Origin: an uncultured Alphaproteobacteria bacterium
GTDB lineage: Bacteria; Pseudomonadota; Alphaproteobacteria; HIMB59; GCA-002718135
Reading direction: 5' to 3'
DNA: 47,319 bases
NCBI GenBank assembly: GCA_902627245.1
Contig: CACOIH010000010.1
Span: 1 to 47,319, forward strand
This document shows, in pieces, positions 2-3,371 of this stretch (position 1 is its first letter; every line of letters begins with the position of its first letter). The position numbers and the translations under genes are program-made. Below the pieces are notes generated by a model. The model saw only the letters and a program-made list of their open reading frames with translations. It did no database searches and was not told where the DNA came from.

Positions 2-265
2 GTTAAGTTAGTATTAGACAAAGCAATATTAAACAAAAATAATTCAAAATCGTTATTTTATTATACGTCAAAAATTAATAAAACTTATTCAGTAGAAAAA
101 AAAATACAGCTTATTGAAACTCTCTGGGAAATAGTATTATCAGATGGCAATATACATGACTACGAATCTAGTTTAATTAGAAGACTTTCAGGACTATTAT
201 ACATTTCTGATATCAATTCTGGAAATGCTAGAAAAAGAGCCCTAAATAATATTTCTAATAAATGA
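2..265 (+). CDS. TerB-like protein, C-terminal part (5' end outside window)
   Basis: The frame is open from base 2 to a TGA at 263-265, giving 87 residues with no start inside the window. The segment '[21 protein letters not shown]' in shortened form (EIVLSDG, then HDYE) follows the helix, acidic-DG, E pattern of the TerB/DUF533 family, whose acidic residues can bind divalent metal. The TerB assignment comes from this pattern alone. The stop overlaps the fdxA start as ATGA, so the two are probably cotranscribed and translationally coupled. The cellular role is unknown; in alphaproteobacteria TerB-like genes often sit in stress-associated neighbourhoods, which fits FdxA, CarD and RpoH downstream. 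Confidence 0.6.
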
Positions 266-594
266 CATACGTAGTTGATGAAAAATGTATTAAATGCAAG
301 CATATGGATTGCGTCGAGGTTTGTCCTGTAGATTGTTTTTATGAGGGAGAAAATATGCTAGTTATCCATCCAGATGAATGCATTGATTGTGGCGTATGTG
401 AACCGGAGTGTCCTGCAGAAGCAATATTTTCTGATACTGAAGAAGGTATTGAAAAATGGGCTGAATTAAATAGAAAGTATGCTGAAATTTGGCCGAATAT
501 AAATGAAAAAAAAGAACCGCCAAAAGATGCTGAAGAGTGGCAGAAGATTGAAAATAAATATGAAAAACATTTTAGTGAAAAACCAGGAAATTAA
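262..594 (+). CDS. fdxA: 7Fe ferredoxin FdxA
   Basis: A 110-residue cytoplasmic electron carrier with one [3Fe-4S] and one [4Fe-4S] cluster. Cysteines lie at positions 9, 12, 17, 21, 25, 40, 43, 46 and 50, which is the Azotobacter FdI arrangement shifted by one residue: 9, 17 and 50 would hold the 3Fe cluster and 21, 40, 43 and 46 the 4Fe cluster. The length and the charged, helical C-terminal half are typical of the alphaproteobacterial FdxA family. It starts inside the TerB stop (ATGA), and its TAA directly abuts the carD ATG. FdxA next to CarD is a common alphaproteobacterial pairing. The redox partner cannot be read from the sequence. Confidence 0.93.
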
Positions 595-1095
595 ATGACA
601 AAAAAAAATAGTGAATTTAAAATAGGCGAGATAGTAGTTTATCCTAAGCATGGAGTAGGTGAAATTGTAAAAATAGAAAACATGGAAATTGCAGATATAA
701 AAACAAAGTTTTATGTAGTTAAAATGGAACAATCTAAATTAATTATAAGAGTTCCATTAGATAAGCAAAATGAAGTTGGATTAAGAAAAATTTCATCTAA
801 GAAAATTATAGATGAGGTATTTACAACGTTGAAACTAAAGCCAAAAATTAGAAGAATAATGTGGAGTAGAAGAGCCCAAGAGTACGAGACTAAAATTTTT
901 TCAGGTGAACCAATAAGAATTGCTGAAGTTGTTAGAGATTTATTTAGAAAAAATAGCCAGGCTGAACAATCCTATAGTGAAAGACAAATGTTCCAAGTTG
1001 CTATTGAAAGATTGGCAAGAGAAGTAGCAGCAGTAGAAAAAACTGATTATTTTCAGTCCACAGAAAAAATCGAACTAATTTTGAGTAAAAAGTAG
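595..1095 (+). CDS. carD: CarD/CdnL family RNA polymerase-binding regulator
   Basis: A 166-residue protein with an N-terminal RNA polymerase-interacting domain (from about residue 8, 'GEIVVYPKHGVGEI') and a helical C-terminal DNA-binding part containing 'RRIMWSRRAQEYE'. CarD/CdnL proteins bind the RNA polymerase beta subunit and stabilise open promoter complexes, notably at rRNA promoters. It follows fdxA without a gap and ends four bases before the TTG of the next gene. With rpoH close downstream, the cluster groups two factors that act on RNA polymerase. Length and domain order are normal, and nothing looks truncated. Confidence 0.93.
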   Translation: MTKKNSEFKIGEIVVYPKHGVGEIVKIENMEIADIKTKFYVVKMEQSKLIIRVPLDKQNEVGLRKISSKKIIDEVFTTLKLKPKIRRIMWSRRAQEYETKIFSGEPIRIAEVVRDLFRKNSQAEQSYSERQMFQVAIERLAREVAAVEKTDYFQSTEKIELILSKK

Positions 1096-1099
1096 AAAA

Positions 1100-1912
1100 T
1101 TGAATAGTTCAAGTAATTTTATTGAATTAAAAAAAGCTTCTAGAATATGGGCAATCGGATCAATTCATTCAAATAGTATTTCTTTTGAGTCAATAAGAAA
1201 TTATATAATAAAAAATTTTCAAGAAAATGATAAACTTGTTTTTCTAGGTAACTTAATTGGTCTAGGAGATTTAACTAAAGAAACCATATCAAGTGTTATT
1301 GATCTTAGATTCGATTTAATGTCTAAGCATAAATTAAAACCAACTGAAATAGTTTTTTTAAGAGGTGCACAAGAAGAAATGTTTAGTAAATTACTTCAGC
1401 TTCAAATTGCACCAAATCCGATAGAAATTATTAATTGGATGTTTGACCATGGTGTTGACAAAACTTTGTCATCATATGGTTTTTCAAAGGATGAGGTTAT
1501 AAATATTGCATCTTCGGGGACAGTATCAATTTCTAAGTGGACATCTAGACTAAATAAGTCCATTCTTAAACATCCTGGTCATAAAGAATATTTTACAAAT
1601 TTAAAACACGCAGCCTATTCGTCTTCAAAAAAAATACTTTTTGTTAATAGAGGTGTTGATATTACAAGGCCCTTGTCTGCTCAAAATGATTGTTTTTGGT
1701 GGGGTTATCAAAATTTCTCAAAAATAAATAAACCTTATAACTCATTCATTAGAATAGTTAGGGGATATCAGTCAAACAATAGTAATGAACTTGAACATGC
1801 AAAAAATAGAGTAATTTGCACTTTATTTAAACAGCCCTTAACTAATAATACAATATATGCTGGGATTTTTAAGGAAAATGGTGAAATTTTAGAATTATTT
1901 GAGTCAAATTGA
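1100..1912 (+). CDS. Degenerate metallophosphoesterase-like protein (probable pseudoenzyme)
   Basis: A 270-residue protein, probably starting at TTG 1100, four bases after carD. The N-terminal third keeps the spacing of a calcineurin-like phosphoesterase but not its metal ligands. The GDxHG position reads GSIHS (20-24), the GDxxDRG position reads GNLIGLG (50-56), and the GNHE position reads GAQEE (89-93). The first His is kept, while Asp, Asp, Asn and His are replaced. The reading frame is intact and codon use matches the neighbours, so this looks like a maintained non-catalytic protein rather than a decaying gene. It lies between CarD and RpoH, which suggests a stress or transcription-linked role by inference. 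Family membership is inferred from motif spacing. Confidence 0.6.
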   Translation: MNSSSNFIELKKASRIWAIGSIHSNSISFESIRNYIIKNFQENDKLVFLGNLIGLGDLTKETISSVIDLRFDLMSKHKLKPTEIVFLRGAQEEMFSKLLQLQIAPNPIEIINWMFDHGVDKTLSSYGFSKDEVINIASSGTVSISKWTSRLNKSILKHPGHKEYFTNLKHAAYSSSKKILFVNRGVDITRPLSAQNDCFWWGYQNFSKINKPYNSFIRIVRGYQSNNSNELEHAKNRVICTLFKQPLTNNTIYAGIFKENGEILELFESN

Positions 1913-2840: not shown

Positions 2841-3371
2841 ATGAGGATTTTAATAATTAATTTTTTCATATTTCTAATAACGACTAATGTATATGGATCA
2901 AACCTCAATATATTCGGCATTGGTCTATATGATGTAAAATTTGACAATTCAGCAAAGCACGAAACAGTTGACATAAGATATGAAAGAAGATTTGATAATA
3001 CACTACTTGATATCGGACCAAAAGAAGATAACTTTTTTTTCTTAAAACCATTTATTGGTCTTGAATACACAGGGGATAGTGCATCATATTTTATAACAGG
3101 AATATATCTTGAAGATAACCTAGGACAATTATTAAAAGGTGAAAAAAATAGGTTATTGTTTACACCAAGTTTTGGAGTAGGTTATTATAATAACGGATCA
3201 GGTAAAAATCTAGGAAACGAAATTCAATTTCGTACAACTTTAGAATTAAGTTATGAGTTAAAAAATCAAAACAGAATTGGATTTTCTTTTGGTCATATTT
3301 CAAACGCTAATTTAGGTGATAAAAATCCTGGAGCTGAAATAATTAATATAACCTACCAAGTTCCTTACTAA
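2841..3371 (+). CDS. pagL: PagL-like lipid A 3-O-deacylase (acyloxyacyl hydrolase family)
   Basis: A 176-residue outer-membrane protein. Residues 1-19 are a signal peptide with a hydrophobic core and likely cleavage after 'NVYG'. The rest is alternating amphipathic segments suited to an 8-stranded barrel. The last strand carries the PagL catalytic triad: His and Ser in 'GHISNA', and Glu 14 residues after the His in 'NPGAE', the same spacing as His126/Ser128/Glu140 of characterised PagL. The family removes the 3-position acyl chain of lipid A in the outer leaflet. It lies 30 bases after rpoH on the same strand, and its stop overlaps that of dusA on the other strand. The exact substrate here is inferred from the family. 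Confidence 0.8.
   Translation: MRILIINFFIFLITTNVYGSNLNIFGIGLYDVKFDNSAKHETVDIRYERRFDNTLLDIGPKEDNFFFLKPFIGLEYTGDSASYFITGIYLEDNLGQLLKGEKNRLLFTPSFGVGYYNNGSGKNLGNEIQFRTTLELSYELKNQNRIGFSFGHISNANLGDKNPGAEIINITYQVPY

Follow-up and report, generated by a model that had tools for sequence, protein, structure and literature searches.

CarD is present in nearly all Alphaproteobacteria and its regulation is partly known. The C-terminal AA tail is what ClpXP reads. In Caulobacter, CdnL/CarD is cleared by ClpXP during starvation in a SpoT-dependent manner, and that report states that ppGpp has no direct action on ClpXP, raises a (p)ppGpp-sensitive adaptor as a possibility without identifying one, and leaves the starvation control of CdnL partly unexplained (PMC11034885). 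Term searches of two further reports on CdnL/CarD of Caulobacter (PMC5324124, PMC6994171) gave no phosphoesterase or neighbour-gene partner, and those of PMC11034885 gave nothing on such a partner beyond the proposed adaptor. The gene described here, dMPE, adjoins one that encodes a member of the same CarD/CdnL family.

The closest described enzymes are the PPP-type phosphatases and ApaH (PRK00166, PF00149), which have their fold and motif order in common with dMPE. As in ApaH, most dMPE members contain an H-A-G...P-L..Q...W stretch and a C-terminal D-x-G...G-G segment. Unlike ApaH, the metal ligands and catalytic His of dMPE are replaced, invariant QEEM, D-x-F-W-W and R-G-Y/F motifs are new, and the family lies on its own branch. 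The pseudophosphatases STYX and MTMR13 likewise keep a phosphatase fold and have lost the catalytic motif, which makes binding, scaffolding and allosteric roles candidates for dMPE as well (PMC10211241). These and the others reviewed are mostly eukaryotic Cys-based phosphatases (PMC10211241), whereas dMPE is bacterial, has a metal-dependent PPP fold, occurs class-wide and is linked to an RNA polymerase regulator. No description of the dMPE family, nor of any bacterial PPP-fold pseudoenzyme, was found in the open-licence literature.

The dMPE gene and its altered motifs

The window, the whole stretch of 47,319 nucleotides that was analysed, carries dMPE near its start within the following run of genes.

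262–594, plus strand: fdxA, a ferredoxin gene preceding carD within this conserved run
595–1095, plus strand: carD, directly upstream of dMPE with a 4-nt gap (CarD_C, 8e-22)
1100–1912, plus strand: dMPE, pseudo-PPP phosphatase gene, TTG start, 270 aa
1944–2810, plus strand: rpoH, 31 nt downstream of dMPE; PRK07500-type sigma-32 (3e-92, bits just under the cut-off)

The partial ORF before fdxA is presumably TerB-like, 2841–3371 after rpoH is taken to be a beta-barrel gene resembling acyloxyacyl hydrolases, and the opposite-strand gene that follows is assumed to be dus. The ORF at 1100–1912 has no in-frame stop and its TTG start lies 4 nt past the carD stop. Among 66 loci of the genus and family (L103–L168), dMPE starts with TTG in 60 and GTG in 4, and the gap to carD is mostly 4 nt. 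The TTG start and short gap look like a conserved weak, coupled translation start, and carD and dMPE look like parts of one transcription unit.

Five positions of the dMPE protein correspond to motifs of PPP/ApaH-type phosphatases.

1157–1171, plus strand: ex-motif 1, GSIHS (residues 20–24), replacing GDxHG; ligand Asp lost, His23 kept
1247–1267, plus strand: ex-motif 2, GNLIGLG (residues 50–56), replacing GDxxDRG; Asn51 in place of the bridging Asp and Gly54 in place of the second Asp
1364–1381, plus strand: ex-motif 3, GAQEEM, replacing GNHE (GAQEE is residues 89–93); without the ligand Asn or the catalytic His, and with conserved Gln91-Glu92-Glu93-Met94
1646–1705, plus strand: ex-HAG loop (NRGVD) and new motif RPLxxQxDxFWWG
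1760–1768, plus strand: ex-HGH motif, RGY (Arg221, Tyr/Phe223)

A sequence-only reading of this DNA had reported GSIHS, GNLIGLG and GAQEE in a preserved reading frame, and both observations held: the motifs are where it placed them and the ORF is open over all 270 codons' worth of protein. It missed two further losses, in which HAG has become NRG (residue 183) and VHGHT has become VRGYQ (residues 220–224). Of the six PPP/ApaH-type metal ligands, the window dMPE retains His23 and has lost the other five. Misalignment of the motifs, which would have undone that reading, was ruled out, given that the same columns read D/H/D/D/N/H/H/H/H in 22/22 of the nearest intact relatives. The family profiles are also colinear with solved PPP/ApaH-type phosphatases.

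Fold, metal site and selection

The window dMPE was predicted by AlphaFold2 with a pLDDT of 86.5 and a pTM of 0.86, residues 183–250 being weaker, and its Azospirillum homologue with a pLDDT of 94.4 and a pTM of 0.92. The best Foldseek matches of both models in the PDB were all PPP/ApaH-like (E 1.6e-8 for the window protein and 6.7e-10 for the Azospirillum homologue, probability 1.00), led by 2qjc (a putative Ap4A phosphatase, ApaH-like), lambda phosphatase, PP5 and PP1. The metallophosphoesterase fold that had been proposed from the letters is thus predicted for the window protein, as a PPP-type fold. TM-scores to PPP structures were moderate, about 0.5–0.7, which makes dMPE a distant member of the fold.

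A phmmer search of the PDB with the window protein returned only chance matches to designed WD40-like proteins, and a family profile was needed; the profile matched 2qjc at three motifs in the correct order. The window dMPE has no family match in Pfam or NCBIfam, and 10 class-wide homologues gave PF00149 and NCBIfam ApaH/PrpE matches far below the cut-off (PRK00166 down to 1e-6, PF00149 0.03), so that none of the 11 members tested exceeded a Pfam or NCBIfam cut-off. The CarD and sigma-32 proteins of the window, by contrast, were readily recognised.

For a census of ligands, 96 class-wide orthologues and the window protein (n = 97) were aligned with the 22 nearest ordinary phosphatases, and six positions were scored: the D and H of GDxHG, the D of GDxxDRG, the N of GNHE, the H of HAG and the H of GH. 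All 22 conventional relatives have 6/6 ligands. The dMPE proteins keep none in 11 cases, one in 38, two in 46 and three in 2; with 0/97 intact, loss of the ligands is common to the family. No member (0/97) has the motif-1 Asp, and none (0/97) the bridging Asp; the GNHE Asn is present in 2/97 and the HGH His in 3/97. The catalytic His of GNHE is kept in 2/97 and replaced in 95/97, with Gln at this position in 88/97 including the window dMPE. His23 is retained in 81/97 and the HAG His in 50/97. Members outside the window's family largely retain the C-terminal Asp-Gly-Gly segment; inside that family both this segment and the HAG His are gone. An apparent intact GDxHG in L230 was rejected because it sits at residue 177, outside motif 1. 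A search for a close intact orthologue adjoining carD found none.

In a quick maximum-likelihood tree, a single branch with a support of 100 divides the dMPE family from the intact relatives. Given these two separate sides, the loss of ligands looks old and shared, and the simplest reading would be one old loss predating the divergence of the alphaproteobacterial orders. It is well supported, from the sequence and from conservation across the family, that dMPE is a PPP/ApaH-like pseudophosphatase in which the canonical two-metal site can no longer assemble.

Purifying selection, one of the checks suggested with the sequence-only reading, was borne out by a dN/dS of 0.06–0.16 for the nearest pairs within the genus, comparable to that of the adjacent acyloxyacyl-hydrolase-like gene and slightly above those of carD and rpoH. 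The gene is a pseudophosphatase in the sense that its catalytic motifs are gone and it is still under selection. Column conservation was scored over 43 dMPE members sharing <80% identity. Of the 20 ex-active-site columns, 11 are at least 90% conserved, compared to 52 of all 270 columns (hypergeometric p = 2e-4, a descriptive value as the active-site columns were hand-picked from motif positions). The replacement residues are near-fixed, with Asn51 in 42/43, Gly54 in 43/43, Gln91 in 41/43 and Arg221 in 43/43, and new strictly conserved stretches, QEEM and Q-x-D-x-F-W-W, lie beside replaced positions. Together with the low dN/dS, these near-invariant replacements and new motifs argue for a repurposed pocket and not for decay. 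From the aligned positions, the ex-active-site cleft would be a pocket that has been rebuilt.

Distribution and gene neighbourhood

Within the window's genus, dMPE was found in 28 of the 37 genomes searched, with an in-frame stop in 0/28; the nine genomes giving no match are incomplete assemblies. Seven genomes with a carD match, from five further genera in the family, all have dMPE, and every genus examined in the family has orthologues. The window belongs to the order of HIMB59. In the sister HIMB59-type family, fdxA and an intact carD are present and dMPE was not found; one genome of this family (G037) is, we assume, HIMB59 itself. A profile built from the genus alignment and run on 289 alphaproteobacterial genomes identified one full-length orthologue each in approximately 100 (about a third); beyond the genus, the best E-values reached 1e-71. 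Among named genomes, a scan placed dMPE in Azospirillum, Nitrospirillum, Niveispirillum and Oleisolibacter. The family is clearly delimited, as in a phylum sample orthologues scored >300 bits and ordinary phosphatases <70 bits; the weakest class-wide matches tested (L281 and L282) are intact phosphatases and were left out of the family. No dMPE relative was found in plasmid records. One contig labelled as an Anaerolineae MAG (L177) carries carD, dMPE and rpoH and groups with alphaproteobacterial sequence; its label is probably a binning error.

Conservation of the position between carD and rpoH had been put forward for testing. The position stands for the window's genus and part of the class; class-wide it does not, and carD is the lasting neighbour. 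The order carD–dMPE is kept in 65/65 genus and family loci showing both genes, and carD immediately precedes dMPE on its strand in 77/96 class-wide loci (60/73 genomes by a separate coordinate comparison), with fdxA upstream in 68. A sigma-32 gene directly follows dMPE in 31 of the 90 loci with enough sequence, and was of the PRK07500 type in 7/7 class-wide loci tested. Given 77/96 for carD compared to 31/90 for sigma-32, the link to carD is conserved and that to rpoH is secondary. The order carD–dMPE also persists in the five further genera, where the sigma gene is elsewhere in the genome or not found in an incomplete assembly. In loci L059–L065 from these genera the gene order is otherwise the same and rpoH is absent between dMPE and the outer-membrane gene, so that rpoH was either lost there or inserted within the family. 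The genome has two sigma-32 paralogues, the window's and one elsewhere (G000:C5:61037-61834), whose aligned stretch contains one TAA.

The association is not obligatory in either direction. Around 15 genomes have dMPE away from carD, and carD occurs with no dMPE detected in at least 60 genomes of Alphaproteobacteria. The latter, together with the HIMB59-type genomes, indicate that CarD does not need dMPE.

Candidate functions of dMPE

The sequence-only reading had supposed that an intact pseudoenzyme in this position could have become a binding or regulatory protein, and conservation of the family is consistent with dMPE having done so. Because the carD gene order outlasts all others inspected, dMPE most likely acts with CarD on RNA polymerase. 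We put a probability of about 0.5 on a role without catalysis, in which dMPE serves as a binding partner or adaptor and tunes CarD, and thereby RNA polymerase at housekeeping promoters. In such a mechanism, the former cleft of this old PPP/ApaH-like pseudophosphatase would have been rebuilt around Asn51, Gln91-Glu-Glu-Met, Arg221, His23 and the Asp-x-Phe-Trp-Trp loop. Translated right after CarD, dMPE would then bind CarD, or act with CarD on RNA polymerase, without catalysis. A more specific version would make it a nucleotide-sensing adaptor controlling CarD activity or turnover, with the nucleotide suggested by nothing other than the ApaH-like ancestry.

Gene adjacency alone can reflect co-regulation. 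It is possible, if somewhat doubtful, that dMPE is a pseudoenzyme that binds a nucleotide or phospho-compound and has a target other than CarD, merely sharing an operon with growth-control genes. The replacement residues conserved where the active site used to be, the putative Ap4A phosphatase among the nearest solved relatives and the genomes in which dMPE lies apart from carD would all fit such a role, but adjacency to carD has been held at class-wide divergence, above rpoH or any other gene inspected. That dMPE has kept or gained catalysis, through a rearranged or single-metal site or other chemistry, is improbable: the bridging and motif-1 Asp are gone from every member, the catalytic His from nearly all, and the window's family is also without the HAG His and the Asp-Gly-Gly segment, although His23 is widespread, the HAG His survives in about half of the proteins and the Asp-Gly-Gly segment is mostly retained outside that family. 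Other activities do sometimes turn up in pseudoenzymes (PMC10211241). A role in regulating sigma-32 (RpoH), say as an adaptor or an anti-sigma-like factor, is very unlikely. The PRK07500-type sigma downstream in the window and in the class-wide loci tested, directly adjoining in about a third of evaluable loci, would suit this role, but the five other family genera and most class-wide loci have carD–dMPE with no adjoining rpoH. A decaying phosphatase pseudogene, which the lost catalytic residues and unusual TTG start might have suggested, was ruled out by the absence of in-frame stops in the genus, the low dN/dS and a ligand loss common to distant Alphaproteobacteria.

For the reading in which dMPE acts with CarD, the C-terminus of CarD offers a further comparison. 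A C-terminal Ala-Ala on CarD is commoner where dMPE is nearby (68 of 80 genomes) than in genomes without dMPE (34 of 60; Fisher p = 2.5e-4, uncorrected for relatedness; loci L075–L102 and L213–L344, most of them with no family label), and is treated only as a lead. The dead site might be a sensor of, for instance, dinucleoside polyphosphates or (p)ppGpp, through which dMPE would govern the activity of CarD or its ClpXP-dependent turnover, and dMPE would then be the missing starvation adaptor in Alphaproteobacteria; we give this extended version only a slim chance. The Caulobacter findings on CdnL would accommodate a factor of this kind. As the window's own CarD is without a C-terminal AA, the adaptor idea remains a lead.

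As a conserved, unnamed protein encoded right after carD, with a phosphatase fold that has no metal site, dMPE is a concrete candidate for a CarD regulator, and would be a bacterial PPP-fold pseudoenzyme. If the sensor version is true, dMPE would link starvation signals to CarD in Alphaproteobacteria.
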